From Sphingomonas faeni (GTDB lineage: Bacteria; Pseudomonadota; Alphaproteobacteria; Sphingomonadales; Sphingomonadaceae), in the NCBI RefSeq assembly GCF_030817315.1, contig NZ_JAUSZF010000001.1, positions 2,809,001 through 2,873,000 on the forward strand: DNA of 64,000 nt, in the 5' to 3' direction. Both the position numbers and the translations under genes were made by a program. This document shows, piece after piece, positions 3,739 through 45,243 of this stretch. The first letter of the stretch is position 1. Each line of letters begins with the position of its first letter. The notes beneath the pieces are model-generated. The model was not told the DNA's origin. It saw only the letters and a list, made by a program, of their open reading frames with translations, and ran no database searches.

Positions 3739-3785
3739 TGGGCGATGACGGGCTCGAACCGTCGACATTCTCGGTGTAAACGAGA
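3739..3785. other. Putative attL: 3' part of tRNA-Val
   Basis: These 47 bases match 45171-45217, the 3' half of the intact tRNA-Val gene, with a single difference (T at 3762 against C). The match covers the anticodon stem and loop, the variable region, the T arm and the acceptor 3' strand, and then stops abruptly. No 5' half follows. Both copies are in the same orientation, as expected for attL and attR of an element inserted in the 3' end of the tRNA gene. Confidence 0.85.
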
Positions 3786-3863
3786 GATTTCCACAGCTTC
3801 CCCTCCTTCAGCCCCGTTCTAGCGGCGGAGCATAGCGAGAACGTACGTGAGACATTTCAAGTC

Positions 3864-3885
3864 CATGCTGTTCATTTGCTGTCCA
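3864..3885. repeat. Tandem 11-bp repeats near attL (possible integrase arm sites)
   Basis: CATGCTGTTCA at 3864-3874 is followed directly by TTTGCTGTCCA at 3875-3885. The same 11-mer occurs twice in tandem at 45079-45100, inside the other island end, and both places are followed by a CGATCGGCA- or TCGGCA-like sequence. The distances to the core (about 79 and 71 bases) are similar. Arm-type binding by the tyrosine recombinase is inferred. Confidence 0.5.
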
Positions 3886-4013
3886 CCGATCGGCACCAGC
3901 GATCCCGGTGAACGTAGGTCGCATAGTTGTTGCGAGCTCACGACAACGCTGCGCCCGTCTAGGTAATCGCTACGCGGAAAAGGGCACGCAGGGTTGCTGC
4001 GCGCCTTTCAGTT

Positions 4014-4770
4014 TCACCAGATATGTACCCGGTTGGGAGGAGCGAGATACAACGCATCGCCGAGCTTCACGCCGAACGCCGCGTACCATGCGGCAACGTT
4101 CCGGACGATTCCGTTGACGCGGGAGAACAGCGGCGGGTGCGGATCAGTCAACAACCGCGCGCGCCGCGCCTTCCCGCAACTTGGCCTGCCACGCCTGCGC
4201 ATAAGCTAGGAAGAACCGCTGGTCGCCGGTCAGCCCGCCGATCGCCTGGCCCTTGCCGTGTTCCGCCTGATACTTCCGATAGGCGGAATACGCCGTTTCG
4301 ACGCCGCCGAAATCACCAATATTCTCGCCAAGTGTCAACGCGCCCTTCACGTGGACGCCGGGGATCGGCTCATACGCGTCATACCGCTTCGACAGTGCTA
4401 CGGCGCGCTGCGTAAAGGTGGTGCGTGATTCCGGCGTCCACCAATGCTCGAACTTGCCGGACGCGCTGAACTGGCTACCCTGATCGTCAAATCCGTGACC
4501 CACTTCGCGGCCGATGATCGCCTCGATCGCGCCGTAGTTGACCGGCGCATCCGCCTTCGGGTCGAAATAGGGCGGCTGCAGGATCGCGGCCGGGAAGGTA
4601 ATCTGGTTGTTAGGCGGATTGTAATAGGCGTTCACGGTCTGCGGCGTCATGCCCCACAGGGGTGCGATTGACCGGCTTGCCGAGGCGCGAGAGGTACAGC
4701 TGGTGCTGGAACTCGCCCGACCGTATCCCGTTGCCGAGCGGATCGGCGCTATGGTCGCTTGCCTATAACT
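4014..4770 (-). pseudogene. M13-family (PepO-like) metallopeptidase, C-terminal remnant
   Basis: The C-terminal third of an M13 zinc endopeptidase is spread over three frames. Reading on the minus strand, one frame gives SDHSADPLGNGIRSGEFQ (about 4700-4760). A second gives WGMTPQTVNAYYNPPNNQ, GREVGHGFDDQGSQF and ENIGDFGG. A third gives LLTDPHPPLFSRVNG and ends in LYLAPPNRVHIW. The zinc motif HExxH reads REVGH here, so the first zinc histidine is lost. The N-terminal two thirds are absent. It is an inactive remnant at the left end of the island. Confidence 0.85.
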
Positions 4771-4844
4771 CGGCACCGGCCCCCGCGTTTGGCTGCCCGC
4801 CTTGCAGAAGGGCTTCCGCCAGCCGGATGTACTGAAGCAACTAA

Positions 4845-4991
4845 GACGCCGCGGCTCTCGCGTTCGCCTCGTGGACCAAGGCGAATGGCAAGGTCATGTT
4901 CGGCCTCGTGCGCAGGCGCACTGCCGAGGTTGCTCGCTACCGCGAGGACGTGGCAAACCTCGCGCGCCTCACCTTCAACGCCGTCACCTGA
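4845..4991 (+). pseudogene. Phage-like gene fragment before the lipoprotein
   Basis: An open frame of 48 codons begins after a TAA at 4842 and ends at the TGA at 4989. It encodes a helical basic segment (SWTKANGKVMFGLVRRR, then YREDVANLARLTFNAVT). It has no start codon of its own and ends 10 bases before the GTG of the lipoprotein gene, an arrangement common in prophage operons. I do not recognise the family; it appears to be the 3' end of a truncated gene. Confidence 0.4.
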
Positions 4992-5001
4992 CCGGACCAC
5001 C

Positions 5002-5307: not shown

Positions 5308-5450
5308 TCCGCCATGCGCCTCTGATCCAGCGCCCAAGTGTATGTCGTGACGTCCGCGTCGTCGCGAAACGTGATTGGGAGTTTGACGGCGCTTGAGTGT
5401 CGCTCGGGGCTGGGCCGGCATGACTTTCAGTAAACTAAGTTCCCAAGCGC

Positions 5451-6608
5451 CTACCGCGCAATAGCCACCTTCTTTCGGCTGTAAGTCAATTTTGCGTTAA
5501 GTCGGGATCCTGTAATAATTCCCGGCCGCTCGATGAGCAGGTACGTAAAAGCAGTTAGTATCGTCACCGCGACAGCAAATAGCGGCATTGCGATTACAGG
5601 CTTCGTTTCCGGTCTCAGGAGGGTAAACCCCAAATAGAGAAGGGATCCGTGCAGAAGGTAGGTTCCGTACGAGCATTCGCCCAAAACAATTGATGATGTC
5701 GAACCGAAGATGCCAAATATCGAGTTTCCACAAACCACCGCGAGAAAAAAGAAGCCAAATGCTGGCATGGCGAAGCTATAAGGATTTCTGAATATCATCA
5801 CCGACGCGAGCAACCACGCACATGCCAATGCGGCGGCGGGACGGGACCGCATCAACCGTACAACTACTGCGTGCGACTTCAGTTCGTAAGCAAGCATCCC
5901 CAAGGCAAAAAGTGGGATGTAGGTAAAAAGCGATATGTCTGTGATCCGTCCGATGATGCCGCCGACGCAGAGCGCTACCGGCACAAGCCACGTCCGGTTA
6001 CCGACGAACAAGCGGGCAAAAGCGCAGACCGGCAGGACGACGAAGTAAAATATCCACTCGTAGTAGATGGACCACAAAACGGAAGCATTGACCATCTTAC
6101 TTTGCCTAAATCCGAAAATATCAAGCGTCTGCTTTCCGCTGATCCAGCTCACGACCTCAAGCGGATATCGTACGGTTGGCCGAAGATTGGTTGTCGTAGC
6201 TATCACCGCCGATACGATCAGAATGGAGAGGAGGAGTAGTGGAACAATCCGAAAAATACGCTTCATATAAAGCTGAGACCAAGAGACATTACGAAATCCC
6301 GCAAGCACTCTTGGATAAAACACCAGTCCGGTTATCATAAAGAAGAGGGCCACGCTTCCCTGTCCCAATTGGTTGAAGAACGGAACTTGCGGCTCATTCC
6401 AACTTCCATTCGCCTTTGCCGACATCCAGACGACAAAGTGATGGCACATGACAGACACTCCAAGAAAACCGCGGAGGCTATCGATATGTCCAATCCTTCG
6501 ACCTTCAGGCAGAGGGAAGCCAATTCCCGCTATTACCCGCCCGCATAAGTTAGCGGCAATTAACGCGAGGCCCACTGCGACCACTATCTCAATCGTATAG
6601 GCCATCAT
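5451..6608 (-). CDS. Acyltransferase family 3 membrane protein (OafA/ExoZ-like)
   Basis: About 385 residues with roughly ten hydrophobic segments. Family-3 acyltransferases transfer acetyl or other acyl groups to extracellular polysaccharide. Key features are GHIDSLRGFLGVSVMCHHFVVW near the N-terminus (His in the active region), GQGSVALFFMITGLVFYPR with KRIFRIVPL, and ECSYGTYLLHGSLLYLG near the C-terminus. The start is placed at 6608 (ATGATG preceded by a GGGGGG run); the frame remains open upstream to 6881, but that part is not membrane-like. The gene belongs to the EPS cluster and probably decorates the polymer. Confidence 0.85.
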   Translation of the reverse strand: MMAYTIEIVVAVGLALIAANLCGRVIAGIGFPLPEGRRIGHIDSLRGFLGVSVMCHHFVVWMSAKANGSWNEPQVPFFNQLGQGSVALFFMITGLVFYPRVLAGFRNVSWSQLYMKRIFRIVPLLLLSILIVSAVIATTTNLRPTVRYPLEVVSWISGKQTLDIFGFRQSKMVNASVLWSIYYEWIFYFVVLPVCAFARLFVGNRTWLVPVALCVGGIIGRITDISLFTYIPLFALGMLAYELKSHAVVVRLMRSRPAAALACAWLLASVMIFRNPYSFAMPAFGFFFLAVVCGNSIFGIFGSTSSIVLGECSYGTYLLHGSLLYLGFTLLRPETKPVIAMPLFAVAVTILTAFTYLLIERPGIITGSRLNAKLTYSRKKVAIAR

Positions 6609-7255
6609 CAATTCCCCCCGCTGGCTTCCCTGCCGGCCCCTAGCTGTACTGGCCCCGCAAGCGAGAACAATAGCGAAGGCCGCATACGGCAAGACCGGCA
6701 CGCAACACTTGGAGGTCCCCGTTCTTTGGGATAATTCGATACTCGGCGCGAAGGCAAATCGCCGCAACCGGCTGGTGTAGGGTCTCGCTAGATAGCCAGC
6801 CGCAACCGACAGTGCCTGCACGTTTTCATGCCCGGGTGAGAATAGCTCGTCGTGAAATGGTGGCCTGTGATCAGGATGCACTTGAGGCGTTTAAAAATGC
6901 GCATGAGCGAACTCCGCTGAAGGTGTCAGAGAGACTGGGTTTACGCGCGACTGGGATACCGACGTGGTAGTGGCGTTACCCGACCGGTCTGGCGAGTGAA
7001 AACCTTCGCATATGCACAAATTAATGCCTGCCTTTGACCAACAACAGTCACGTAACCCTCCGTTGTCGCGGGAAAGGATGACGCATGGTTGCAACAGCCA
7101 CGACCGACTATATCAGGAAGGCGATGCGGGCGACCGCTGCACTTGCCCCGCCCTCCCTAAGGGGGGCAACATCACCCAATCAATCAGTGCGATGAAATCG
7201 GTATAGTGCTCTAATGACGCTGTAGACGTGCTCGGCGCTTCCGCCGACGGGACCT
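6609..7255. other. Intergenic region between the acyltransferase and Wzx genes
   Basis: About 650 bases with no convincing gene. A short open frame on the plus strand from 7085 (37 codons, beginning MVATATTDYIRKAMRATAA) follows a purine-rich GGGAAAGGA but has no recognisable relatives. Base composition is lower in GC than the housekeeping flanks. It may hold promoters or gene debris. Confidence 0.4.
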
Positions 7256-8782
7256 TCAGCGGCGAATGAACCTGAACGCTCGTGCAACAGGGCCGGTCCG
7301 GGACAGGCGTTCGTCGAGCAGTTCGAGCACGCCACGGCCGAGGAAGACGTTAGGTAAGAGCGTGGCGCAGGCGAAGTACACGATTCCGGCGAGCGATGAA
7401 GAACCCGTCAAGCGAATAACTACCGGCAGTGCGGTCTGCGCACGCAAGAACTCTGCTGCGATCATTGCTATCGTACCGATCAACGCGGCGGACGCAATGC
7501 CGGGCAGGAAAGCCTTTAACATATCGAGCCAGGTCAGGCCGACATGGCGGATGACGGAGTTGTTGAGCAGGATAAAGACGATCGCGATCGATGTTAGGGT
7601 GGAGACCGCCACGCCATTGATGCCCCAGATTAATCCAATGGCAGCGCCGCCGATGACGCATACCGCGTATAAAACCTGCGAAAATGCATTCTGGTAGGCC
7701 AGCCCCAGACCATTGCCAGCGCTGCCTGCTACCTTGTAGCACGTGCGCGCGAAGATCCCTCCCGCGAGAATTGCGAATGGGGTGGTGGCGTCCAGCCATC
7801 GGCTGCCTAAAAGCGTTTCGACAATCTCCCTCGCCTGAGCGACGCAAACGACGGATATCGGCAGTGTAATCGACGCGGTAAGCTGCATGCATTTTATATA
7901 TGCCCGGCGAAACCGCGCATGGTCGTGAGCGACCCGCGCGAACGCGGGAAACAGGACGGTATTCAACATGCTCGCCAACAGCGAGTTGGACAGATTCATC
8001 AATACGTAGGACCGCTCGTACCGCCCGAGTTCGGTTGGTCCCAGCAGCTTGCCCACGACGAAATAATCGCCTCGCTGTGCAAAGAAGTTCGCGAACCGCT
8101 GCAATCCGAAGCCAGTGCCTAGCTTCATCAGATCCTTGTATTCCAAGCGTCCGAAATGCAGCGACATATCGTGCGGCTGCGCTCGCATTAGGATAATGCT
8201 CTGGAGGAGTGCGCCCACTACTTGTGGAATGATGAGCGCCCAATAACCGCCCCCAGCGAATGCGATTGGAATCCCGACCACCACCTGCGCCCCCACATAG
8301 GCTATTATGTTACTTTTAGCGATCGGCTTGAAGATATGAGCACGCTCTAGTAATTTACTCGATATCGTGCTGGCCGCCATGATTGGCGGTATGACTGAGC
8401 TTACGTAAAGTACCCCCTCAAGGTCCGGAAGAGAAAAGAACGCCGCTATGGTAGAACTTGCTACGATCACCATCATCATTGTCACAACGCCAACTGCCAA
8501 GGACGAGGTGAAGGCTGTTCTGATATGATTGGTAGTAAGATCTTTCATATGGACAATGGACTGGGACATGCCGGTCGTCGCGATCATTCTAGCAAATTCG
8601 ACAAAGATGTTCGAAATCGCCACCACGCCGAAATCGTCTGGTGCCAGAAGCCGCGCCATGACGCCAACGACTGCGATCCTTAGAAGGGCTGTGGCAAGCG
8701 TGCTCGAGGCAAGTTGTGCAAAACCGCGAACCGTTTGGTGTGAAATCGAGGAGTTCGGGACAGCGGAAGTTTTGTCAGTCAT
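7256..8782 (-). CDS. Wzx-type oligosaccharide flippase (PST/MOP superfamily)
   Basis: 508 residues with 12-14 hydrophobic helices. It probably flips undecaprenyl-linked repeat units across the inner membrane for Wzy-dependent polymerisation. The N-terminal pattern TVRGFAQLASSTLATALLRIAVVGVMARLLAPDDFGVVA is typical of lipopolysaccharide flippases of the WzxC/AmsL type, as is LGPTELGRYERSYVLMNL in the middle. It is transcribed divergently from the pyruvyltransferase gene; the 170-base gap holds promoters for both. It is the only flippase in the cluster. Confidence 0.9.
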   Translation of the reverse strand: MTDKTSAVPNSSISHQTVRGFAQLASSTLATALLRIAVVGVMARLLAPDDFGVVAISNIFVEFARMIATTGMSQSIVHMKDLTTNHIRTAFTSSLAVGVVTMMMVIVASSTIAAFFSLPDLEGVLYVSSVIPPIMAASTISSKLLERAHIFKPIAKSNIIAYVGAQVVVGIPIAFAGGGYWALIIPQVVGALLQSIILMRAQPHDMSLHFGRLEYKDLMKLGTGFGLQRFANFFAQRGDYFVVGKLLGPTELGRYERSYVLMNLSNSLLASMLNTVLFPAFARVAHDHARFRRAYIKCMQLTASITLPISVVCVAQAREIVETLLGSRWLDATTPFAILAGGIFARTCYKVAGSAGNGLGLAYQNAFSQVLYAVCVIGGAAIGLIWGINGVAVSTLTSIAIVFILLNNSVIRHVGLTWLDMLKAFLPGIASAALIGTIAMIAAEFLRAQTALPVVIRLTGSSSLAGIVYFACATLLPNVFLGRGVLELLDERLSRTGPVARAFRFIRR

Positions 8783-8956
8783 ATCCCGCCTAAGTTAAAG
8801 ATTGTGGAGAGAGCACTTGCCGAACGCTACGGGCAATGTACACCGGGATGATGCACTGCAGCAAGGAAAGGTTCGCCGGCGAGGTAACACATTCACCGGA
8901 CGAATGCCCTCGGAAGCATTGCCACCATTCAGACGATCATGACGATAGGGATTTTG

Positions 8957-10006
8957 ATGAGCAAACCTCTGAAAATCGGAGTGTTCGGATTTTACAGCTA
9001 CCGGAACCTGGGCGACAACCTGATGGCGTATCTCATATCGAGGCACTTGCAGGAACGCGGCCATCTGCCCGTCGTCTTCTCGAAGAATGCGGCGGACATG
9101 GCCGAATGGGGCATTCCCGTCTTCGGTGACGTTCGCGAGTTCATGGCGAACTGCGACATCGTTTTCCTGGGCGGAGGAGGCTTGCTAATCCCTCGTCCGC
9201 GACTGTCGGGCATTGGCCAGGATTTTAACGAAGACCTGAAGGCAATGCTCGAGGTTTCGACTGAGAACGATATTCCCCTCTATGGTTTTTCCTTGGGCGG
9301 CGCCGGCGTTCCCCTCACTCAGATCGTCCCCTCGCAGCGACGCGATCTGATTTCCCAGATGAAATACGTGACGCTTCGCAACAGGGAAGACCTGCAACTT
9401 CTCGAGCAGGCGAATATCCAGGGTGAGTTCCTGGACGATATCGTCTGGAGCGTCGCCAACAAGATTCCCGCTCGAACCAAGCCGAAGGGCAAAGAAAGGT
9501 ACCGAATCGGCATAAATCTCTATCTTGGAGACTCGCCCAAGTTCTATCCTACGAAGTTCCTGATATCAGCGGCTACCAAGATCAGGAGAGATATCAATTT
9601 TATATTTTTTGATATCCACCCGAATGCCGATGGTGCTTTCAATGCCTTTTACATTGAGGGTCCGAACTGTCAGAAAAAGTTCGCCCTGGATATTCAAGAA
9701 TCGTGTGATGATGTCGCATCTCTGGATCTGTTAATCACCACGCGGCTTCACCTCGGGGTTATGGCAATGAGCTACGGCGTTCCGAGCGTGGCCTACGCAG
9801 CAGTTACGAAGACGAAGCTGCTTTACAACCGAATCGGTCGCCAAAAGTTCTTTTGGAAAAGCTATGAATTCTACAAGTTTTCACTACTGTTTCTGTTTCC
9901 TTCCGGCTTCAAGACGGATGGGAAGGAAATTCTGCCCCAGCAGGTAAACGACAACGCTCTTCTTCACTACGATGCCATAGACAGGATTCTCGCCGCGCAA
10001 GCTTAG
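8957..10006 (+). CDS. Polysaccharide pyruvyltransferase family protein
   Basis: About 349 residues. The N-terminus KIGVFGFYSYRNLGDNLMAYLISRHL has the family's NLGD motif. CDIVFLGGGGLL and YGFSLGGAGVPLT follow, and near the C-terminus DLLITTRLHLGVMAMSYGVPSVAY contains the conserved RxH. These enzymes add ketal-linked pyruvate from phosphoenolpyruvate to sugars of EPS. The ATG at 8957 has a better purine stretch (AGGG) upstream than the ATG at 8939. It lies 50 bases before a GT4 gene on the same strand. Confidence 0.85.
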   Translation: MSKPLKIGVFGFYSYRNLGDNLMAYLISRHLQERGHLPVVFSKNAADMAEWGIPVFGDVREFMANCDIVFLGGGGLLIPRPRLSGIGQDFNEDLKAMLEVSTENDIPLYGFSLGGAGVPLTQIVPSQRRDLISQMKYVTLRNREDLQLLEQANIQGEFLDDIVWSVANKIPARTKPKGKERYRIGINLYLGDSPKFYPTKFLISAATKIRRDINFIFFDIHPNADGAFNAFYIEGPNCQKKFALDIQESCDDVASLDLLITTRLHLGVMAMSYGVPSVAYAAVTKTKLLYNRIGRQKFFWKSYEFYKFSLLFLFPSGFKTDGKEILPQQVNDNALLHYDAIDRILAAQA

Positions 10007-10056
10007 CTGCGCCATGTACGAACTGTTCTCATCAGTCTACCATAAAGGCGCCCGGC

Positions 10057-11247
10057 TTGCGTATCATCCTGACTAACACCTTGTTTCCGCCCATAATCAA
10101 GGGCGGCGCCGAGGTATCGACGTTCAACCTTGGCAAGGCTCTGGTCGAGCGGGGGCATGAGGTGCATGTCATTACCGTCGTGCCGGACAGGGAAAGTGTG
10201 AACCATGAGCACGGCATGGTGGTGCACCGCATCAAGCCTCGCTTCGTAGACTATCCCTTCGATAAACCCGATCGCAGCAGCTTGCGTAAGCTGGGCTATC
10301 ACGCGATCGAGAATTATAATCCGCTTATGCGCGCGCGGCTGCGGCCGATCATGGAAGCAGTGCAGCCGCAGATCGTCCATACTAACATCATGCAGCTGCT
10401 CACCTGTGGCGTGTGGAGCGCGGCCAAGGACGCCGGCGCCAAGGTGGTCCACAACTTGCGTGACTACTGGCTGTTGTGCGCGCGGTCGGGCTATTTTCGC
10501 GGCGACGATCCCTGTTCGCGCAAATGCCTTGATTGTGCGCTGGTCACACGTCCACGCCGCGGTCGGACCGCCGATGTTGATGGCGTCGTCGCGGTGGGCC
10601 AGTACGTGCTCGACACGCATCTGGCTGCGGGTCTGTTTCCCAATGCCAAGGTCGCTCGTGCGATCCTGAGCGCCACGGCGCCGGTGGAGTCGATCAAGGG
10701 CGGGGTACCTGACCGCTCTGGTGTGACGATCGGCTACATCGGCCGGATCAAGGAAGCTAAGGGGCTGCGCGTGCTGCTGCAAGCCATGGCCAAGGTACCC
10801 GCCGACGTGCCCGTACGCTTGCTCGTGGCCGGCGACGGCGAAGCCGCCTACATGGACGAGATGCACGACTTGGGCGACGCTCGCACGACGTTCCTAGGTT
10901 GGTGCAAGTCGGAAGATTTGTACCGCAAGGTCGATCTGGTGGTAGTGCCCTCGCTCTACCCCGAGCCACTCCCCCGCAGCATCCTAGAAGCCTACCGCTA
11001 CGGCCTGCCGGTTATCGCCGCCCGCTCCGGTGGCATCCCCGAAGTAGTCGATCCAGGCCGCAGCGGATGGCTCTACGAAGGGCGTGATGTCGACGAACTC
11101 GCCCGCCTGATCACTGCCTTGCCCAGCCCCATGGGTCTCGACACACTGGACAACACGGCCCGCGATGCGATCGTCAGCCGTACTGATCCAGACTACGTGG
11201 TCGATGCATACGAGTCGGTATATCGGGATGTGCTGGCGACGGCGTGA
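10057..11247 (+). CDS. Glycosyltransferase family 4
   Basis: 396 residues, GT-B fold. Donor-side features are VTIGYIGRIKEAKGLRVLLQAM, LLVAGDGE and VVPSLYPEPLPRSILEAYRYGLPVIAARSGGIPEVV, which includes the EX7E-type motif. The N-terminal half has PPIIKGGAEVSTFNLGKAL, the acceptor-side signature. The start codon is TTG at 10057 with AAAGGCG upstream. It probably adds one sugar to the lipid-linked EPS repeat unit on the cytoplasmic face; donor and linkage cannot be read from sequence. Confidence 0.88.
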   Translation: MRIILTNTLFPPIIKGGAEVSTFNLGKALVERGHEVHVITVVPDRESVNHEHGMVVHRIKPRFVDYPFDKPDRSSLRKLGYHAIENYNPLMRARLRPIMEAVQPQIVHTNIMQLLTCGVWSAAKDAGAKVVHNLRDYWLLCARSGYFRGDDPCSRKCLDCALVTRPRRGRTADVDGVVAVGQYVLDTHLAAGLFPNAKVARAILSATAPVESIKGGVPDRSGVTIGYIGRIKEAKGLRVLLQAMAKVPADVPVRLLVAGDGEAAYMDEMHDLGDARTTFLGWCKSEDLYRKVDLVVVPSLYPEPLPRSILEAYRYGLPVIAARSGGIPEVVDPGRSGWLYEGRDVDELARLITALPSPMGLDTLDNTARDAIVSRTDPDYVVDAYESVYRDVLATA

Positions 11248-12504
11248 ACGCGATCAGGGCAACAGTGACCGCTACCTGGAAACGTTCTCATTTCGAAATG
11301 TTTTGCCGTGCCTATGATGAGGCGTTCAAAAAACCTGCCATCACCCCCGAATGTTGCAAAACATACTCGCCGGCCCTTGTCGCTAGATGATCGGTGTCAT
11401 GATGGACAGGGTAGACGCTGAGCCACCGCGTGCACTCGTCCCCCAGACAGAATGATTTTCGGGGTTCGACATAGGACGCGCCAGGCAGAGCTATCTTAAG
11501 CCCTGGAAAAAAAACGCTGAGATCGAGATCTTGGCAGTGTTTCAGGCACGAACGGACAGAACGATGGGGGCAAGTCGTGCATTCTGAGTTGCGCTAGGCA
11601 TTCCGGTCCTGGCACTTGAAGCTCGCGAACATCGCGAAATACGCTTACTTTTATGTTAGCCCTTCCGAGCTCCGACGATGGTAGCAAATGACCCGCGCAG
11701 CGCACTTTCTGTTTGAAGGATGCGACCGGTGGCATCCAGTAATTGTTGCATCTCGATGTGCTCAGGCGGGAAGAAGGCACGGGCCTATCGGCCTATCAGT
11801 ATGACTTAGCTCATGTCATCGGATCGCGGCAGTTCCTGAAGAAAATCCGCATTCATCGCTGTGCATCCGTCCCCTATTTGCCCCGTCTCTTCGCGACGAT
11901 GGCCTCCGGAAGGCACGCCATAGATCGCCAGGATCGCACCGGCCAACAATTCCTATACGCCTGTGGGCAACATGTAGAGGTTCGCAGCCGCATGGTTCGA
12001 TAATAGGACAATATCGAGAAATAGGATACGGCCTTCCCAGCGAAATACAGCGGGAGCTGACGAGACGTTTTGCTCGTCGAATCAACGTCATGCCCAAGCC
12101 TGCTCCCACACTTGGTAAGAGTACGGCTAGCGATGGCGAATACGTAGACTGACGACCTCGGGTCTTTATTAAAACTTTCATAACGGACAGGGGGCAGTTC
12201 GTTCCGTCAGCCCAACAGTGCAACACTACATTCTTCTTCCGTTCGGAGAAAGAAGCTAGAATCCCTTATGAACATGGCGCAAGATCGCTGTGACCGATCC
12301 GTTGCTAAAAACTTGGGGCCTACGAGGTGCCAGGGATGAAGCATCTGTTGCAATGCGGCGCATGCGGAAAGCTGTCTTCGGAGAGCCTAGTCGAACGGGG
12401 CGACCCGCTCGGCTCGCCCATGGTCATTACGAAGCGGCGGCGACCACCGCTATGGTCGTGTTCGCGGTTCCTGTTAATTGTCCGCTTCCGCCAGATCTCA
12501 GATT
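11248..12504. other. Long region without recognisable genes
   Basis: About 1.26 kb between a GT4 gene and a methyltransferase gene, which end towards each other. The longest open frame (11816-12226, minus) has no recognisable domain, a Cys/Arg-rich composition and no good ribosome binding site. Composition is mixed and lower in GC than the glycosyltransferase genes. I see no transposase motif. It is probably decayed coding sequence inside the island. Confidence 0.4.
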
Positions 12505-13203
12505 TTACGCACCCGCGATACGTGCACCGCAAAAACCCGGATCAAATACTTCATCACTTACTTTTCGGACGGCGATCTCGATTTGGAAAGCGAAGAATAG
12601 CTCAAACCGCCGCAACGTTAGCGTATTCAATTTCGCCAGCTTTTTGCTCAAGATGCGTCGCTTCACCTTAACCAACTGCAACCCGGTTCCAGTCATCAGC
12701 TTTACAGCGGAATCCTCGGAGAAAAAACGGATGTGAGTTCTATCAAAAAGACCTGTATTTCTGTACTTCCAGTTCCCAGTCAAGATTGTCCAGACGAACC
12801 TCAGCTGCTGCGAATTAGGGACTGATGTGACGATTGTCGCGCCGATAGGCAAAGCCGTGTGCAACTCTGCGACCACGCGCCAGGGATCATATAAATGCTC
12901 CAAGACGCAAAGGCAGAAAACCAGATCAACAGGAGCGCGACGAGCCAGCGCGTTGGCAAGCTGCCCCTCTTTGTTGAGATTGACGAGAATTACATCGTCT
13001 ACCTTGCTTTTGGCGACGTCCAAGGCCTTCTCAGAATAGTCTGCTACATAGACCCGTTCGGCACCCAGATGCCTCTTCATATGCGCGGCGAACTCGCCAG
13101 TCGAGCCACCCACGTCGAGGATTGTACCAACCGTAGATGGGCAAAGCTCGGTTATCCCGGCCCTATCGGACTGCGCGTAGATAGGCACTGTTGGTTCGGC
13201 CAT
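12505..13203 (-). CDS. Class I SAM-dependent methyltransferase
   Basis: 232 residues. The SAM-binding motif I is TILDVGGSTGEFAAHM. An acidic motif II follows (VYVADYSEKALDVAK), then VDLVFCLCVLEHLYDPWRVVAELH and ATIVTSVPNSQQLRF. The phrase GLFDRTHIRFFSEDS is common in Methyltransf_11/23 proteins of polysaccharide loci, and O-methylation of a sugar is the likely role. The C-terminal part (KVKRRILSKKLAKLNTL) is basic and may contact membrane or substrate. Same strand as the following GT4 and export genes, though separated by about 580 bases. Confidence 0.85.
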   Translation of the reverse strand: MAEPTVPIYAQSDRAGITELCPSTVGTILDVGGSTGEFAAHMKRHLGAERVYVADYSEKALDVAKSKVDDVILVNLNKEGQLANALARRAPVDLVFCLCVLEHLYDPWRVVAELHTALPIGATIVTSVPNSQQLRFVWTILTGNWKYRNTGLFDRTHIRFFSEDSAVKLMTGTGLQLVKVKRRILSKKLAKLNTLTLRRFELFFAFQIEIAVRKVSDEVFDPGFCGARIAGA

Positions 13204-13337
13204 ACATCCCCCTTAAGACGTGTGACGGTTCCAATTGTGAGTTCTTCGCATCGGCGGCCGAGCACACACGAAGGGGGTAAGCATAGAATGCGCCGAGCGC
13301 AAATGGCACAGTATGGCCCGTCGCAGCTACGAGGCGC

Positions 13338-13455: not shown

Positions 13456-13779
13456 GATGGTCAGGGTCGCATTACCTCTGGTTTCAGTATTTATGACCAT
13501 AGAGCACTAAATATTAACCACACCTTACAAGCGTCGACCATTCGGGCGCTGCGGTAACAAAGCTATTACAGTAGAGAGCTATTACAACATCTCCACATGT
13601 TAGTGGTGGTGTTTGGGATCGTAGCTGCCGCGATTATTATTCCTGGCGTAAGGTTAGTACATAATTGCGTAATCGCAGCAGGCAGCGTTGGGGCAAAAAT
13701 GCTGAGTCCTATATTTTAGACGCTGGGACACCCGCAAAACCCATCAGGTAACTCGATGTATCGAGATAGATGGCCGCCT

Positions 13780-35087: not shown

Positions 35088-36101
35088 TCATTTGCCATAA
35101 TACTCTCGATACCACTCAACGAACTTCGTCACACCCTCGCGCACGCCTGTCTTGGGCGAGTATCCAGTGAGCGACTTTAGCAGGTTCGCGTCCGCCCACG
35201 TTGCCGGCACATCGCCGGCTTGCATCGGCATAAGGTTGCGCTCCGCCTTGCGTCCGGTGGCATCTTCGATCGTTTGGATGAAATCGGTGAGTTGCACCGC
35301 GTCGGAGTTGCCGATGTTGACCACGCGCCAGGGGGCGACGGGCGACAGGCTGTCGCCTTCGGGAACGGCCTCGCCATTGATGGGGCGGACGGGGGGGGTG
35401 TCGATCAGCAGGCGGATAGCTTCGACAAGATCCTCGACGTAAGTGAAGTCGCGCTTCATATCACCGTAGTTGTAAACGTCGATCAGGTCGCCTGCGAGGA
35501 TCGCCTTGGTGAACTTGAACAGAGCCATGTCCGGGCGGCCCCACGGGCCGTACACAGTGAAAAATCGGAACATCGTCACCGGCAGGCCGAACAGGTGCGC
35601 ATAGCTGTGCGACATGTTCTCGGTCGCCTTCTTGGTGGCCGCATAGAACGACATTTGGTGGTCGGCCTTATCGGTTTCCCGGTAAGGCATCTCGGTGTTG
35701 GCGCCAAAGGCAGAAGAGGTAGAGGCGAGCAGCAGGTGCTCAGGTGGATGAGCGCGCGCGGCTTCGAGCAACTCGAACGTGCCAACGATGTTGCTTTCCA
35801 GATAGGACCGCGGGTTCTCAATCGAGTAGCGCACGCCCGCCTGAGCGGCGAGGTGAATCACCACGTCGGGCTTTTCACGCGCAAAAATCTCCATCAGCAG
35901 ATCGGGCGTCTCGACATAGTCCTCGATCGCCTGGAAGTGCTCAGACTGGAGTAACCGGGCCTGGCGCCGTTGCTTGAGCGACACCTCATAATAGTCGGTC
36001 ATCGCGTCGAGGCCAATGACGCGGAACCCGTCGCGGAGCAATCGCTCGCAGACGAAGGACCCGATGAAGCCGGCCGAGCCGGTGACGAGGGCGGTACGCA
36101 T
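35088..36101 (-). CDS. NAD-dependent epimerase, UDP-glucuronate 4-epimerase-like
   Basis: 337 residues, extended SDR. The Rossmann motif TGSAGFIG is at residues 7-14. HLAAQAGVRYSIENPRSYLESNIVGTFELLEAAR and the catalytic SFYAATKKATE (YxxxK) follow, then FRFFTVYGPWGRPDMALFKF. This composite is typical of UDP-glucuronate 4-epimerases (LspL/Cap1J) making UDP-galacturonate. The start at 36101 is right before the Rossmann fold; the frame is open upstream, but that part overlaps the dehydrogenase gene. It lies 4 bases after the UDP-sugar dehydrogenase gene and probably uses its product. Confidence 0.88.
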   Translation of the reverse strand: MRTALVTGSAGFIGSFVCERLLRDGFRVIGLDAMTDYYEVSLKQRRQARLLQSEHFQAIEDYVETPDLLMEIFAREKPDVVIHLAAQAGVRYSIENPRSYLESNIVGTFELLEAARAHPPEHLLLASTSSAFGANTEMPYRETDKADHQMSFYAATKKATENMSHSYAHLFGLPVTMFRFFTVYGPWGRPDMALFKFTKAILAGDLIDVYNYGDMKRDFTYVEDLVEAIRLLIDTPPVRPINGEAVPEGDSLSPVAPWRVVNIGNSDAVQLTDFIQTIEDATGRKAERNLMPMQAGDVPATWADANLLKSLTGYSPKTGVREGVTKFVEWYREYYGK

Positions 36102-36105
36102 GGGT

Positions 36106-37272
36106 TTAATCCGATCCGAACAAGTCGCGGGTGAAAATTTTCTCGGCGGCATCTTCAATCTCGGGCGCCATGCGGTTGGCAAGAATGATATCGCAGTCTT
36201 CCTTGAACGCGGCCAGATCGCGAACAACCTTTGAGCCGAAGAACTCGTTCTCCTGCATTGCCGGCTCGTAGATCACCACTTCGATGCCCTTGGCCTTTAT
36301 CCGCTTTATGATACCCTGGATCGACGAGTCGCGGAAATTGTCCGATCCCGCCTTCATCACTAAGCGAAACACGCCGACCCTGCGGGGTGACTTGGCGATG
36401 ATCTTTTCAGCGAGAAAGTCTTTGCGGGTGCGGTTGGCGTCGACGATCGCACGGATCAGGTTCTGGGGCACATCGGAGTAGTTGGCCAGCAGCTGCTTGG
36501 TATCTTTTGGCAGGCAATAGCCGCCGTAACCGAAACTGGGGTTGTTATAGTGCGCACCGATACGCGGATCGAGGCCGATGCCGGTAATGATCTGGCGGGT
36601 GTCCATGCCGAGGCCGATAGCGTAGCTGTCCAGTTCGTTAAAGAACGCCACGCGCATGGCAAGGTAGGTGTTGGCGAACAGCTTGACTGCCTCGGCCTCA
36701 TTGGAATCGCAGAACAGGACCTGGACATCGCTTTTCTGCGCGCCCTGTAGCAGCAAGTCGGCGAAGATCCGCGCGCGTTCGGACCGCTCGCCTACGATGA
36801 TGCGCGAGGGGTAGAGGTTGTCGTACAGTGCCCTGCCCTCCCGCAGGAACTCGGGACTGAAGATGACTTGCTCGGTCCCCAGCCGCTGACGCACGTCCTT
36901 GACGAAGCCGACGGGGATGGTCGACTTAATGACGATGGTGGCTTGCGGGTTGCCCGCCGTAGCAGTCCGGATCACTGCTTCGACCGACGACGTGTCGAAT
37001 TGGTTGCTGTCGACGTCGTAATTCGTCGGGGTGGCGACGATTACGTAGTCTGCCCAGGCCAGCGCCGTTTGCGGATCGAGTGTGGCAGTCAGGTTCAACG
37101 GCTTGGTCGCGAGGAACTCTTCCAGTTCGGCATCAACAATGGGCGATTTCCGCGCGTTGACCATATCGACCCGGCCGGCAGTGATATCGACCGCGACGAC
37201 CTCATTGTGCTGAGCCAGGAGGACTGCGTTGGACAGTCCGACATAGCCGAGCCCAAACACTGCGATCTTCAT
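36106..37272 (-). CDS. ugd: UDP-glucose 6-dehydrogenase family protein
   Basis: 388 residues. The N-terminal NAD-binding [15 protein letters not shown], a central KSTIPVGFV and [13 protein letters not shown], the catalytic loop [15 protein letters not shown] with Cys, and the C-terminal UDP-binding region [21 protein letters not shown] are all present. It oxidises UDP-glucose to UDP-glucuronate in the cytoplasm. It is immediately upstream of the epimerase gene; together they can supply UDP-glucuronate and UDP-galacturonate for the EPS. Confidence 0.9.
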
Positions 37273-38848: not shown

Positions 38849-39343
38849 GTGCCTGCCTTCGAAAAGCTCAGTATTCCGTGCACCTTCGTGCAAGACAATC
38901 ACTCGCTGTCGGTGCCGGCATTCACGTTGCGCGGTCTGCATTTCCAGACACCGCCCCGTGGGCAAGACAAGCTGGTGCGGTGCGTGCGGGGCGCGATCTT
39001 CGATGTGGCTGTCGACATCCGCAAGGGCTCGCCGACCTACGGCCAGTGGGTCGGTGCCGAGCTGTCGGCGGAGAACGGTCACCAGCTGTTTATTCCAATC
39101 GGCTTCGCGCACGGTTTCGTGACGCTCGAGGACAATTGCGAAGTCAGCTACAAATGCTCGGACACCTACGCGCCCGAGAACGATGGCGGCATCCGCTGGG
39201 ATGACCCCGCGATCGGCATCGACTGGCCGATGCCTGCCGGCACCGCGCCCGAGCTTTCGCCGAAGGATGCGGTGCAGCCGTTGCTCGCCGATTTCGACAG
39301 CCCCTTTCCCTATGACGGCCGCCCGCTGGCGCCGCTCGCCTGA
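38849..39343 (+). CDS. rmlC: dTDP-4-dehydrorhamnose 3,5-epimerase, 5' end lost
   Basis: The RmlC cupin: [28 protein letters not shown] with active-site His, then [25 protein letters not shown] and a C-terminal DPAIGIDWP. The family's early residues ILVPKRFGDSRGWFTEVYS are in frame upstream, but the frame is closed by a TAA at 38777 with no start codon between. The first start is therefore the GTG at 38849, which removes about 38 N-terminal residues. It may be inactive. It precedes rmlB by 11 bases. Confidence 0.82.
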
Positions 39344-39354
39344 AGGATAGTTTC

Positions 39355-40410
39355 ATGCGCATCTTCGTCACCGGCGGGGCCGGCTTCATCGGTTCGGCCC
39401 TCGTCCGGCACCTGATCGAGAACACCGAGCACGAAGTCCTCAACTTCGACAAGCTGACCTATGCCGGCACGCTGTCGACGGTCGAGCGCGTGGCGAGTTC
39501 GAACCGTTACCGCTTCGTCCAGGGCGACATCTGCGACGCAGACGCCGTCAAGGCCGCGATCGCCGAGTTCAAGCCCGAGATTGTCACGCATCTCGCAGCC
39601 GAAAGCCATGTCGACCGTTCGATCGATGGACCCGGCGCGTTCGTCCAGACCAACGTAGTCGGCACCTTCACGATGCTGAGCGAGGCGCGCGCCTATTGGC
39701 TCGGCCTCGACGACGAAGCGAAGGCAGCGTTCCGCTTCCATCATATCTCGACCGACGAGGTCTACGGGTCGCTCGGCGATACCGGGTTGTTCACCGAAGA
39801 GACGCCGTACGATCCGCGTTCGCCTTACTCGGCGTCGAAGGCCGGCTCGGACCACCTCGTCAGCGCTTGGGGTCACACCTTCGGGCTGCCGGTGCTGATC
39901 ACCAACTGCTCGAACAATTACGGGCCGTATCACTTCCCCGAAAAGCTGATCCCGCTGATGATCGTCAAGGCGCTCGCCGGTGCCGATCTTCCGGTATACG
40001 GCAAGGGCGATCAGGTCCGCGACTGGCTGTTCGTCGAGGATCACGTTCGTGCGCTGCATGCGGTATTCGAAAAGGGTGAGCCTGGCCGGACCTACAATGT
40101 CGGCGGAAACAACGAAAAGCAGAACCTCGAGGTCGTGAAGACCGTCTGCACGATCCTCGATCGGTTGCGCCCGCGTGCTGACGGTCAGTCGTATGCGACG
40201 CAGATCACGTACGTCGCTGACCGCCCTGGTCACGACAAGCGCTATGCAATTGACGCGAGCCGGATCAAGAACGAGCTCGGCTGGGAGCCTGCGGAGACGT
40301 TCGAGACGGGGATCGAGAAGACCGTCGCCTGGTATCTCGACAACCAGGGCTGGTGGGAAGCGATCGTTGCCGAGCACAAGGCTGATCAACGCCGCGGACT
40401 GTCTGTATGA
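39355..40410 (+). CDS. rmlB: dTDP-glucose 4,6-dehydratase
   Basis: 351 residues. [15 protein letters not shown] is the NAD site. [38 protein letters not shown] and the catalytic [14 protein letters not shown] (YxxxK) follow, then [18 protein letters not shown]. It converts dTDP-glucose to the 4-keto-6-deoxy intermediate for rhamnose. It is intact, with AAGGA upstream, and overlaps rmlD by 4 bases. Confidence 0.95.
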
Positions 40411-41309
40411 AACAGATCCTCGTCACCGGCGGTAATGGCCAGCTTGGCACCGAGCTTAAGCGCTACGCTTGGCCCGAAGGCTGGGCAGTCACCGCGATCG
40501 ACATCGACGAACTCGACCTGCGCAATACGGCAGCGATCACCGCGATGGTCGCGTCACAGCCATGGGCTGCAGTCATTTCGGCCGGCGCCTATACCGCGGT
40601 CGACAAGGCCGAGAGCGACATCGTCACCGCCTGGGCCGTCAACGCGATGGCGCCTGCGGCGTTTGCGGAAGCCTGCGCCAAGGCCAATATCCCGATCGTC
40701 CAGGTCTCGACCGACTATGTTTTCGACGGCGCGCGCGATGGTGCTTGGGAGGTGACCGATCCGGTCGCCCCGCTCGGTGTGTACGGTGGCTCAAAGCTTG
40801 GCGGCGAACTCGCGGTGCGCACTTCGGGCGCACGGTACGCGATTGTCCGCACCGCCTGGGTGGTCAGCGCCCACGGCAACAATTTCGTCAAGACGATGCT
40901 CCGCGTCGGTGCGACCAACCCTACGTTGCGCGTAGTCGACGACCAGCACGGCAGCCCGACATCGGCGACCGATCTTGCAGCCGCGCTTGCAAAGATCACG
41001 ATGCGCCTCGTCGAGGATCCCGCGGCGCCGACCGGGACCTACCACTTCAGTAACGCGGGCGCGGTCACCTGGGCAGGCTTCGCCCGCGAGATCTTCGCGC
41101 AGAGCGCCGCACGTGGCGGGGCCAGCGCCGAGGTGCAGGGTATCACCACCGCGGAATACCCGACGCCGGCGACGCGGCCCGCCAATTCACTGCTCAGCCA
41201 TGACGCGATCAGCCGCGACTACGGCATTCATCCGCCAGCGTGGCAGACCGCGCTCGGCAACATCCTCGACGAACTGCTCGGGGCACCCAACAAGGAGACA
41301 CGCGCGTGA
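40407..41309 (+). CDS. rmlD: dTDP-4-dehydrorhamnose reductase
   Basis: 300 residues. The N-terminal [18 protein letters not shown] is the NADPH site. [34 protein letters not shown] contains the YxxxK, and [17 protein letters not shown] and [13 protein letters not shown] follow. It makes dTDP-L-rhamnose as the last step. It overlaps rmlB by ATGA and rmlA' by GTGA, so the original order was rmlC-rmlB-rmlD-rmlA. Confidence 0.95.
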
Positions 41310-41404
41310 AGGGCATCATTCTCGCAGGCGGTTCGGGCACGCGCCTCCATCCGGCAACGCTGGCGGTCAACAAGCAGCTGCTGCCGGTCTACGACAAGTT
41401 GTAA
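41306..41404 (+). pseudogene. rmlA: Glucose-1-phosphate thymidylyltransferase, first 32 codons only
   Basis: From the GTG at 41306 the sequence reads [14 protein letters not shown] then [10 protein letters not shown], the invariant N-terminus of RmlA. It then changes abruptly at about 41398-41400 to unrelated AT-rich sequence and stops at 41402. The remaining 260 or so residues are missing. dTDP-glucose must come from another RmlA. Confidence 0.9.
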
Positions 41405-42294: not shown

Positions 42295-42372
<78 letters not shown>

Positions 42373-42778: not shown

Positions 42779-43330
42779 TCAGGTTTCGACGCCGATTTCG
42801 TCCCCCAGATCCTTCGCACAGGCGAATCCCAGAGTTTTCGCATAGTCGTCGGTCAAGAAGTCGGACCATCCTTGTCGAGGACGGCAAACGCCCCGTTCGA
42901 TCCGCGAGAGTGATGCCTCGGTGAGATTCCCGAGCATGCAGGCCAGATGGGACAGAGGTAGCGGCTCGCGGGCATGACCCAGATAGGTCAGAGGAAGCGA
43001 TCCGCGGGCACGACGCAGATCGCGCAGTCGTCGGCCGATTGCGACGTCGCTCATGTCGCGATCTGCGTCGCCACCGACTTCGCCGGTCGGCGGCAGAAGC
43101 CCCAGCGCATGCTCCAGTGCCAGCTTGCTTTCCGACGACACGGGAGCACCCGCCTCGATTCTCGTCACGGTACGGGGCGCCAAGCCCGCCTTCGACGCTA
43201 GCTCGCGCTTCGTCAGACCGAGGCGCGATCTTGCTTTGGCTACGCGGTCGGCAAAGGTGGTGCCTGAATCAACTACTGCCGTGCCGCTGGATACCGCGGA
43301 AAATACGCGCTTCTCCGCTTTCAACATCAT
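42779..43330 (-). CDS. XRE-family regulator with two HTH segments
   Basis: 183 residues. The first helix-turn-helix is VAKARSRLGLTKRELASKAGLAPRTVTRIEAGAPVSSES (residues 30-68). A second, weaker one spans IGRRLRDLRRARGSLPL to LTEASLSRIERGVCRPRQGW (about 98-155). It is probably the island's transcription regulator controlling the integrase module, because it is divergent from the small gene and integrase at 43.4-45.0 kb. The intervening 110 bases would hold the operator. Confidence 0.75.
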   Translation of the reverse strand: MMLKAEKRVFSAVSSGTAVVDSGTTFADRVAKARSRLGLTKRELASKAGLAPRTVTRIEAGAPVSSESKLALEHALGLLPPTGEVGGDADRDMSDVAIGRRLRDLRRARGSLPLTYLGHAREPLPLSHLACMLGNLTEASLSRIERGVCRPRQGWSDFLTDDYAKTLGFACAKDLGDEIGVET

Positions 43331-43477
43331 AGCACCCTGCCGAAAATGGTTCGGGCAGATGGCTCAAGCCCAAAAAAATGACATATCAGACCGGACTTTC
43401 TTACACAAGGCCCGAAGAAGCCAACCCTTGTTGCTAGAAGGATGCACCCGCCGAGGCGTGGTCTGGAAGGGTCGGGC

Positions 43478-43852
43478 ATGGAAACAGGATCGATGAAAGA
43501 GTGGAGAAGGAAGGAGGTCAGCGCGCTGCAAGCGTCAGCCGGTCCGGCATCCGGCCAAGCAACCGCTTCGACGATAGCGCACAAGTATCGGCACGCACTG
43601 AAGAACGGAACCGGAGCTCACCTGACGCTCGCCGAACTACAGTTGCTCGCACACCTGGGCGCTCTGAATCTCGTGACCCGCGCAGAAAATGAGGAACTCA
43701 CGAATTGGCAAGAGATACTAGCCCGTATTCCGCCGGGGAACACTGGCTCGACCAACGCCGCGATGGGAATGCAGCCGGCATCTGGCAGATCGCGACAAAG
43801 TCCGCCGACGGACGATCGGTCGTATATAAAAGCACTCGGACTCGCGACCTAG
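43478..43852 (+). CDS. Small protein upstream of the integrase
   Basis: The frame encodes MKEWRRKEVSALQ, then ATASTIAHKYRHALKNG and HLTLAELQLLAHLGALNLVTRAENEEL, a helical charged segment. The start may be 43478 or 43493. Its 3' end overlaps the integrase frame by about 150 bases, which is unusual and suggests that a frameshift has removed its own stop. The function may be directionality or a regulatory partner; this is inference from position. Confidence 0.45.
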   Translation: METGSMKEWRRKEVSALQASAGPASGQATASTIAHKYRHALKNGTGAHLTLAELQLLAHLGALNLVTRAENEELTNWQEILARIPPGNTGSTNAAMGMQPASGRSRQSPPTDDRSYIKALGLAT

Positions 43853-44998
43853 CGGCCGCTAAGGCGGCGATCCATGCGTTCGTCGAGACCAAACGCGCCA
43901 TGGGGCTTCAGAGCAGCGAAGACGCTGAGGTTCTCCCCCATCTGTTCCTTCACTGGAAGGAACACGGTCGACACACACGAAATCCGGACACGATTGCCTG
44001 AAGCCTCCGGGCGTTTATCGGTTTCCTTCTACAGAACCCGGTCCGCGTTCGAGTGCGGTTTTCCGAACTCACGCGCACTGTCTTCAGGCGCTTCATCAAT
44101 TGGCGGATGGAGCCCCACTCCTTCACCGTCGATTGGCTAGGGCAAGAAAGGCGCCTCGTTTCGAAGGGCGTTAAGGGCGAGAGCGCTCAGCGAAACATCG
44201 ACGACGTTCGAGCCGCCCTGAACCACGCCGTGGAGATGGAGCGGGTACCGTCCGCGCCAAAAGTGCCCAGCGTAGCGAAGGAACATCGCTCGCCTCCGAG
44301 AGACGTAAGGATGTCGCTCGATGAGTTGGGCGCCGTTGCCGGGTACGCTTCGCAGGTGTCGTCGGACTCCGACGAAGGGCTTCGGCCGTTGGCTATGGCT
44401 CATGATCGGAACCGCTTGCCGTCCGGAAGCCGCACTAGCTTTCGATCCGCTCGTGCAGTGGAAAGATGGACTTATATATACTCATCCAGAGGGTGCACCT
44501 CGAACGAAGAAGCACAATCCCGTTGTCGCCGCCGCGCCCGCACTTGCAAAGATGCTTGACGACTGGCGCCAACAGACTCTGGCCGAAGGTGAGAATAGTC
44601 CGCCGCCGAAATCGAGAGGCAGGGCTTGGCGGACCATGCGCCGGGCGTTGGAGCTGCCAGTCCAGTACATTCCGAAAACGATCCGGCACACCGTGGCCAC
44701 AGAACTGCGGCGCAGAGGTGTGCCGGCGGAACAGATTTCGGTTCTGCTTGGTCATCGACCGGCCGATTTGGAACGTATGACTGCCGTCTACGCCAAATAC
44801 GATCCGCGCTATCTCGCTGAAGCGGTCACCACGCTTCAGGCGCTACTGATGGAGGTGAACCAGAATGCCCAAAACTGGTCCGCGCGACACCGTCGTGAAG
44901 ATCGGGAACGCGCCGGTAGCGGTCATCGCGGTGGACGTCGTCGACCAGCAACCATCGTGATCATTCTCGGAGGCGGTCCGACGGCGATCCAAATATAG
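43705..44998 (+). pseudogene. Tyrosine recombinase/integrase, disrupted
   Basis: The reading starts at TTG (43705) with SAGEHWLDQRRDGNAAGIWQIA and SVVYKSTRTRDLAAAKAAI. An in-frame TGA at 43999 interrupts the SAM-like domain. The frame then continues (RTVFRRFINWRMEPHSF, EMERVPSAPKVP) until a frameshift near 44380-44400. The catalytic domain is complete: Arg in MIGTACRPEAALAF, His in PKTIRHTVATELRRRG, LLGHR, and Tyr in MTAVYAKYDP. It lies beside the intact tRNA-Val and is the likely enzyme of island integration, now inactive. Confidence 0.88.
44865..44960 (+). CDS. Possible tiny protein after the integrase
   Basis: 31 residues (MPKTGPRDTVVKIGNAP, then VAVIAVDVVDQQPS). A GGAGGTG lies 8 bases upstream, but those bases are also part of the integrase frame. 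No family is recognised. It is listed only because of the good ribosome binding site; the frame could be accidental. Confidence 0.2.
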   Translation: MPKTGPRDTVVKIGNAPVAVIAVDVVDQQPS

Positions 44999-45078
44999 AG
45001 ACAGGGTTAGCGATCTCGCAACGTCGCGGCGCAAAATCCAAGTCGCACTCTACGCGACGCATTCCAATCGTCGGTCCG

Positions 45079-45100
45079 TTTGCTGTCCATTTGCTGTCCA
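45079..45100. repeat. Tandem 11-bp repeats near attR (possible integrase arm sites)
   Basis: TTTGCTGTCCA is repeated exactly at 45079-45089 and 45090-45100, followed by TCGGCA. The same 11-mer is at 3875-3885 inside the opposite end, next to a degenerate copy. These lie 71 bases inside the attR core. Nothing else is seen in 44999-45167. Confidence 0.5.
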
Positions 45101-45167
45101 TCGGCAGATTTTTTAAATCAGAGCCGACCTGCTACAGTAACCAAGCCATTGATTTTACTTAGGAATT

Positions 45168-45243
45168 TGGTGGGCGATGACGGGCTCGAACCGCCGACAT
45201 TCTCGGTGTAAACGAGACGCTCTACCAACTGAGCTAATCGCCC
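45168..45243 (-). tRNA. tRNA-Val (UAC), island target and attR
   Basis: 76 bases including encoded CCA. The acceptor is GGGCGAT with ATCGCCC, the D arm is GCTCAGTTGGTAGAGC, and the anticodon stem TCTCG/CGAGA encloses TTTACAC with anticodon UAC. The T arm is CGGTTCGAGCCCG. Bases 45171-45217 are repeated at 3739-3785. The 3' end points toward the integrase and island, which is the usual geometry of a tRNA-targeted element that restores the tRNA. Confidence 0.96.

Follow-up and report, generated by a model that had tools for sequence, protein, structure and literature searches.

A tRNA-Val genomic island of Sphingomonas faeni, its polysaccharide genes and the tRNA-Pro(UGG) gene inside it

Replacement flexible genomic islands, in the portions of Lopez-Perez et al. 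(2014, PMC4033161) that bear on this work, are clusters for exposed polysaccharides that occupy the same place and carry different genes in each lineage. Those portions include a Pelagibacter O-chain island that contains the only rRNA operon, and they report no clear hallmarks of illegitimate recombination at the island borders. Hot spots in Sinorhizobium meliloti, as outlined in part of PMC11476347, arise from integration at the 3' ends of tRNA genes, with direct repeats that keep the tRNA whole and several elements per tRNA. In Magnetospirillum gryphiswaldense, a section of PMC7860042 describes how the predicted prophage P1 was deleted in two parts, sparing its tRNA genes. Islands that exchange exposed polysaccharides have thus already been described; how such islands keep their place is not clear. 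Here we analyse a 64,000-nucleotide stretch of Sphingomonas faeni (hereafter the window; G000:C1:2809001-2873000 of a 4.37-Mb genome in 5 contigs) in which an exopolysaccharide (EPS) gene cluster lies inside a genomic island at tRNA-Val(UAC).

The explanation that best fits the locus overall, and that we consider probable, is an old tRNA-Val island whose frame was inherited and whose sugar cargo was replaced. A stable frame around changing sugar genes makes the age of the frame and the age of the cargo separable. Five genomes other than that of the window recur below: the sisters Sphingomonas sp. Leaf230 (G023), Sphingomonas sp. PP-CC-1A-547 (G061) and the uncultured bacterium Sph-ATUE_S111H113 (G062), the nearest genome without the island (G033), and a relative with an empty site (G028).

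The island and its empty site

The region is a tRNA-Val-targeted genomic island, as identified by a repeated tRNA half, an AT-rich interior, the empty site in G028, an integrase family found at tRNA-Val and a putative arm motif present at either end. The original prediction had proposed this geometry of left and right attachment (att) sites, attL and attR, and the empty site and the integrase family now back it. The features that delimit the island are these:

3172-3732, plus strand: XRE-type helix-turn-helix (HTH) regulator, last core gene on the left (Pfam HTH_31/HTH_3); its homologue abuts tRNA-Val in the G028 empty site
3736-3785, plus strand: attL, a copy of the 3' 50 nucleotides (nt) of tRNA-Val, 48/50 identical (repeat alignment)
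3786-4310, unstranded: inner left end; G023 and G061 match it at ~77%, and G062 has only 139 bp aligned at the corresponding position
4144-4776, minus strand: M13 peptidase gene fragment just inside attL (Pfam)
45168-45243, minus strand: intact tRNA-Val(TAC), whose 3' half is the attR core (tRNA prediction and repeat alignment)
45307-46356, minus strand: winged-helix gene, first core gene on the right (HTH_27 at 21.3 bits, just under the Pfam cut-off; start position approximate)

The duplicated stretches, 3736-3785 and 45168-45217, lie 41,432 bp apart in the same orientation and agree at 48 of 50 positions; the 47-base version noticed originally, with one mismatch, is borne out. In terms of the tRNA, the attL copy begins on the 5' side of the anticodon stem and reaches the CCA end (read from sequence), and a scan of both strands of the window found no further copy of the tRNA-Val half at 31 or more of 50 ungapped matches. 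A proposed check of composition gave the expected contrast. Mean GC content is 0.577 inside the island versus 0.666 in the left flank and 0.653 in the right, and tetranucleotide distance, measured against other chromosomal DNA with the right flank itself included, is 0.20-0.47 in the 4-kb bins from 4001 to 44000 versus 0.12-0.20 in the remaining bins. The two ranges overlap slightly, the lowest value inside (0.199, 32001-36000) falling just below the highest outside (0.201, 52001-56000).

Both flanks were searched for in 60 relatives and in the genome itself, and 20 regions from 18 relatives were compared. In G028 the left flank (window 1752-3785) joins the right flank (45168 on) at one intact tRNA-Val. 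The order there is XRE regulator, ~12 bp, tRNA-Val and a homologue of the right-hand winged-helix gene (gene end read from sequence), which is the arrangement predicted for an empty site. The last left-flank match lies 85 bp from tRNA-Val in G027 and ~0.2 kb from it in G005 and G034, where the left gene aligns in part. The gap is ~0.5 kb in G025, 1.1 kb in G033, 1.5 kb in G030, 2.8-3.3 kb in G002, G022, G003 and G004, 8.1 kb in G032 and 60 kb in G016; in G017, G021 and G023 the flanks fall on separate contigs. In G033 a 13-nt stub of the repeat stands where the empty-site tRNA would begin, followed by the 1.1 kb and then an intact tRNA-Val; this filler (L065 9076-10187) has no BLAST match to the window island.

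Three further regions were set aside. The 60-kb gap in G016 contains a prephenate dehydratase gene and was treated as a rearrangement, not as a further island. In G008 tRNA-Val and the left flank are in opposite orientation, and the region, being rearranged, was not used as a site comparison. In G011 the left flank abuts tRNA-Val and an insert lies on the other side. This insert, in G011:C13:86000-149900, places an integrase, a terminase and a primase-type protein in that tRNA-Val and is a different element. At its far end stands a 45-nt copy of the 5' half of tRNA-Val, not of the 3' half.

Integrase, putative arm motif and the frame shared by four species

The right end of the island and the putative arm sites comprise the following features:

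42296-42372, minus strand: tRNA-Pro(TGG), only chromosomal copy in the genome (tRNA prediction)
42779-43330, minus strand: XRE-type regulator of the right-end module (Pfam and homology)
43705-44957, plus strand: tyrosine integrase pseudogene, with one in-frame stop and two frameshifts relative to the intact 419-amino-acid G023 copy
3875-3885, plus strand: putative integrase arm site TTTGCTGTCCA, 90 bp inside attL; 89-90 bp inside the repeat in G023, G061 and G062
45079-45100, plus strand: putative arm sites, a tandem pair of TTTGCTGTCCA starting at 45079 and 45090, 89 and 78 bp from the tRNA 3' end

Open copies of the integrase, 419-423 amino acids long, are present in all three sisters. Across 295 genus genomes (up to the best six candidates per genome among the matches listed), relatives at E<=1e-80 occur in eight and close ones (at least 88%) in four: G000, G023, G061 and G062, the last two scored as records G203 and G312. 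A protein search with the integrase returned 306 relatives among 7,997 scored candidates, and a scan of named genomes with a 25-sequence integrase alignment gave 19 loci. Because an intact tRNA-Val(TAC) stands 40-211 bp past the integrase match in 17 of these 19, we conclude that the integrase family targets tRNA-Val. Of the other two loci, the one in Stenotrophomonas has tRNA-Val(GAC), and the second has no tRNA found by ARAGORN, BLAST recovering only part of the 5' half. In three of the 17 (L171, L172 and L183) the intact tRNA-Val is turned the other way, its 5' end toward the integrase, which suggests a second integration geometry within one integrase family.

The module of integrase and XRE regulator, and the terminase, primase-type protein and integrase that G011 has in the same tRNA, would also suit a decayed prophage at tRNA-Val. 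We regard this as very improbable. No structural or packaging family appeared among the 43 island open reading frames (ORFs) scanned with Pfam, which were not every ORF and were run without a phage library, and no phage record covers 80% of the right module, the ten listed matches covering 3-5% of it. No plasmid record covers 80% either. Among plasmids and phages alike, the listed matches extend over 3-5% of the module and fall at the two tRNA genes, so a plasmid or phage carrier of this module was dismissed. The same Pfam scan of 43 ORFs found no relaxase or conjugation gene. Of the 'phage-like genes' in the original prediction, the integrase and one regulator are seen, with no search of a phage-family library having been run for others.

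The 11-mer TTTGCTGTCCA has no other occurrence in the window at up to one mismatch. The three sisters have the right-hand pair at the window's spacing of 89 and 78 bp, certain copies differing by one mismatch, and the compared regions of G028 and G033 contain no copy. Among distant integrase loci, 6 of 15 carry one copy (one mismatch) 80-83 bp from the tRNA; as background, the scan of 18 integrase loci (L184 left out) gave five further matches with one mismatch at unrelated positions. We read these copies as putative integrase arm sites and offer them as a lead.

G023, G061 and G062 keep the attL repeat with 1, 2 and 3 mismatches over 46 nt, att counts here resting on BLAST and on the whole-window ungapped scan. 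Because the att repeat with its left arm motif and the right-end module are common to all four species at the same spacing, the attL side and the right-end module appear to belong to one framing element. A core tree built from four concatenated core segments (5,332 columns) gives (G000,(G023,G061,G062)) with G033 as sister at 100% bootstrap. Identity of the window to the three sisters is 84-92% in the right-end pieces (tRNA-Pro with its promoter, regulator and integrase) and again 84-92% in the core flanks, and the right end is kept in the sisters over ~2.5 kb. Since divergence there lies in the same range as core divergence, the right end, along with the left att repeat and arm site, appears to have been inherited with the chromosome in this clade of four sampled species.

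G062 repeats the inner left end of the element some 13 kb inwards of its left end (G062:C141; L200-L202). This extra copy has an arm motif too and retains 17 nt of a degenerate att site, which gives the impression that attL received one more element. In the window, M13 peptidase-like sequence in the inner left end begins at ~3978, and 3978-4749 is matched by 86% identical DNA on other contigs of G061 and G062.

A tRNA-Pro(UGG) gene inside the island

The tRNA-Pro(TGG) gene is a second tRNA gene in the island, absent from the original prediction. Chromosome C1 has two more proline tRNAs, CGG and GGG, and the only other TGG copy of the genome, on contig C3, has two substitutions, one of which breaks the first anticodon-stem pair (stem read by eye). 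Each of the three sisters has three proline tRNA matches, the TGG one in the island and the other two like CGG and GGG. Across the four island genomes and G033 the gene is identical at 77 of 77 bases, compared with ~84-92% in neighbouring DNA in the sisters, and on this ground it appears to be under selection.

A TGG-like gene is the best match in 33 of 36 genus relatives (at least 103 bits, versus at most 91.5 for the CGG type); among the matches listed, it lies near tRNA-Val only in G023, and G012, G015 and G019, all incomplete genomes, have no such match or only a distant one. ARAGORN found TGG in all 14 relatives' loci examined, with tRNA-Met close by in nine. At the tRNA-Met locus of G000, G023 and G033 (L153, L154 and L155) there is no tRNA-Pro within the ~5 kb compared, from which tRNA-Pro(TGG) would appear to have moved away from its former neighbour by about the time the clade arose, or earlier. 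Four species now have it in the island, and G033 has it at another place (L134 9774-9850).

tRNA-Pro(UGG) is needed to read CCA codons, which make up 10 of the 146 proline codons in seven flank ORFs. Being the sole chromosomal gene of its kind here, with no second copy found in any sister, it is probably an essential tRNA that excision of the island would remove. A core tRNA within the island offers a simple reason for the island's retention and ties the relocation of a tRNA gene to the stability of an island. More tentatively, the captured gene, as the cell's only fully intact copy, might be a lock: island loss would kill, and the polysaccharide locus would stay chromosomal with its contents swappable, a role like that of a toxin-antitoxin pair. 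We treat this as a possible but doubtful extension.

Several segments of contig C3 (129 kb, plasmid-like; L123-L129) have counterparts in the island: a tRNA-Pro(TGG) copy, an rml block (86%), an IS66 element (99.8%) and a decayed tRNA-Val with its 5' flank. The contig may have exchanged DNA with the island. The shared segments of C3 are:

48735-48859
104509-107121
114387-117236
128485-128642

This sharing also suits a fossil composite region in which independent insertions (a tRNA-Val element, IS66, a rearranged tRNA-Pro segment and plasmid-exchanged EPS genes) only look like one unit. The degenerate extra att fragment of G062, 13 kb in from its left end, and the M13 peptidase sequence just inside attL fit such a patchwork as well. 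The left att repeat with its arm motif and the right module, common to four species at the same spacing, point instead to one framing element, and we judge the composite possible but clearly less likely than an inherited frame with replaced cargo; the two differ mainly in how the cargo arrived.

Exchanged polysaccharide genes and known systems

Between its ends the window island carries these features:

5451-29596, unstranded: EPS cluster, with Wzx, two Wzy_C proteins, a Wza-like export protein, a Wzc-type autokinase, glycosyltransferases, acyltransferases, a pyruvyl transferase and a methyltransferase
29985-32834, plus strand: IS66 element of three genes, 99.8% identical to the copy on contig C3
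32819-33898, minus strand: second, truncated IS66 transposase (Pfam)
35088-36227, minus strand: NAD-dependent sugar epimerase/dehydratase (family match)
36106-37272, minus strand: UDP-glucose 6-dehydrogenase, with a homologue in G023 and G061 ~1 kb inwards of attL
38849-41309, plus strand: rmlC, rmlB and rmlD (family match)
41306-41404, plus strand: rmlA remnant of 32 codons (read from sequence); a longer rmlA follows rmlD in G062 and is also on contig C3

Where two IS66 elements had been announced, the three-gene element is present and the second is a truncated transposase. In G062 ~4.5 kb that are absent from the window lie between the rml genes and tRNA-Pro.

Polysaccharide genes occupy the island in all four clade genomes, and the gene sets differ. 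From ~1 kb inside attL, G023 carries a UDP-glucose dehydrogenase, a GDP-mannose dehydratase, an epimerase that we read as a GDP-fucose synthase, glycosyltransferases, Wzx, Wzy_C, a MobA-type relaxase and further sugar genes. The G061 island has Wzy_C and glycosyltransferases, and the G062 contig with the integrase and tRNA-Val has Wzc, Wzx, Wzy_C, a glycosyltransferase and rml genes. The window's Wzc and Wza-like proteins are 34% identical to those of G062 and have no match at E<=1e-10 in the G023 arms; its Wzx is 22% identical to that of the G023 arms. All four genomes have a UDP-glucose dehydrogenase gene, the protein being 80-82% identical to that of the window. Of the 41,382 island bases, at E<=1e-10, 1,647 match the left arm and 2,695 the right arm of G023; the figures are 1,693 and 2,634 for G061 (35.6 kb of left and 12.2 kb of right arm compared), and 1,591 and 5,847 for G062, the extra being mainly the rml block. 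Aligned to each other, the left arms of G023 and G061 share 4.2 kb at 81.8%, then have ~11.8 and 16.2 kb unmatched, then share 15.3 kb at 94.5%, a match that ends with the compared piece. This pattern could be accounted for if recombination within the sugar-nucleotide genes that the two have in common had exchanged the middle block.

At E<=1e-60, no DNA match to positions 9900-29700 turned up in any of the 294 other genus genomes, among them the three sisters, judged from the best two candidates per genome among the matches listed, so that weak matches may be missed. The attL repeat is present in those sisters, and a repeat in relatives that lack these EPS genes is what the original prediction had itself named as counting against it. 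The suggestion that the whole EPS locus was or could be moved as one unit is not supported by these comparisons: the sisters keep the repeat and right end with other polysaccharide genes, the integrase is broken here, and the island could not be excised precisely without losing the only chromosomal tRNA-Pro(UGG). The lack of matches to 9900-29700 also makes it unlikely that the EPS genes are the original cargo, having arrived with integrase and repeat in one integration and later been lost or exchanged by the sisters. Everything does lie between one att pair, and the polysaccharide genes in all four clade members mean that some such cargo may be ancestral. However, the right end matches the sisters at core-like identity and the cargo does not. 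A plasmid origin of the EPS genes was also considered and dismissed, 5400-13300 having no match among 72,556 plasmid records.

The history that we think probable would run as follows. In an ancestor, a tyrosine integrase specific for tRNA-Val would have inserted an element into the half of tRNA-Val(UAC) that runs from the anticodon arm to the 3' end, with attL at 3736-3785 and a tRNA made whole again at 45168-45243 as the products. Both ends, and especially the right one, would then have been inherited with the chromosome. Between them, surface-polysaccharide genes would have been replaced, leaving the species with different Wzx/Wzy-type genes. The main route of replacement would have been homologous recombination, both in the sugar-nucleotide genes that the islands share and in their common ends, with IS66 insertion, and accretion of the kind hinted at by the degenerate second att fragment in G062, as additional routes. 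In this genome the integrase is a pseudogene, which would leave the island fixed; loss of the island would be selected against owing to tRNA-Pro(UGG).

Several observations weigh against this history. First, only two of the four single-segment trees fit it: segments 0 and 2 (support 0.949 and 0.156) place G033 nearer to the G023 group than G000 is. Given these trees and the 13-nt stub in G033, the insertion may be older and have been lost there. Second, G023 and G061 match the inner left end at only ~77%, compared with 84% for the core, and in G062 most of this end is displaced 13 kb inwards; from 3978 it consists of M13 peptidase sequence that is better matched on other contigs of G061 and G062 (86%). 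Third, the island arms of all three sisters are on separate contigs, and the end-to-end view comes only from the window's island. Fourth, the arm motif was picked post hoc, after being seen, and its count alone is unremarkable, 7 of 100 shuffles giving at least three matches at up to one mismatch. Finally, homologous recombination as the route of replacement rests on one pair, G023 and G061.

How, then, does the island compare with described systems? In a literature search that covered few subscription papers, we found no description of this island, nor of any polysaccharide island that holds a sole tRNA gene. Sphingomonadaceae polysaccharide clusters, in the part of PMC5399355 relevant here, resemble it in their Wzx/Wzy-dependent genes, in belonging to the same family and in the horizontal transfer invoked for them; that part of the work puts no polysaccharide cluster in a tRNA-framed island. 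The predicted prophage P1 of M. gryphiswaldense likewise has tRNA genes called essential inside a mobile region, but it is a predicted prophage, and the relevant section of PMC7860042 describes no conserved integrase frame with exchanged polysaccharide cargo. The S. meliloti islands, as portrayed in part of PMC11476347, share integration at a tRNA 3' end with direct repeats, an intact tRNA and the use of one tRNA by several elements. Unlike them, the island here has an inactive integrase, cargo that turns over while the ends stay, and a core tRNA gene inside.

In the behaviour of its cargo the island fits the replacement flexible islands, at least as the relevant portions of PMC4033161 present them. 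As there, different clusters of like function occupy the same place, here in four genomes with little cargo shared in the compared arms, and genes vary by lineage; the island with the only rRNA operon is a parallel to tRNA-Pro here. The borders differ, being integrase att sites at a tRNA gene, and our comparison is between species only, not between strains. We class the locus as a replacement polysaccharide island, set apart by its framing by integrase att sites and by the core tRNA captured within it.

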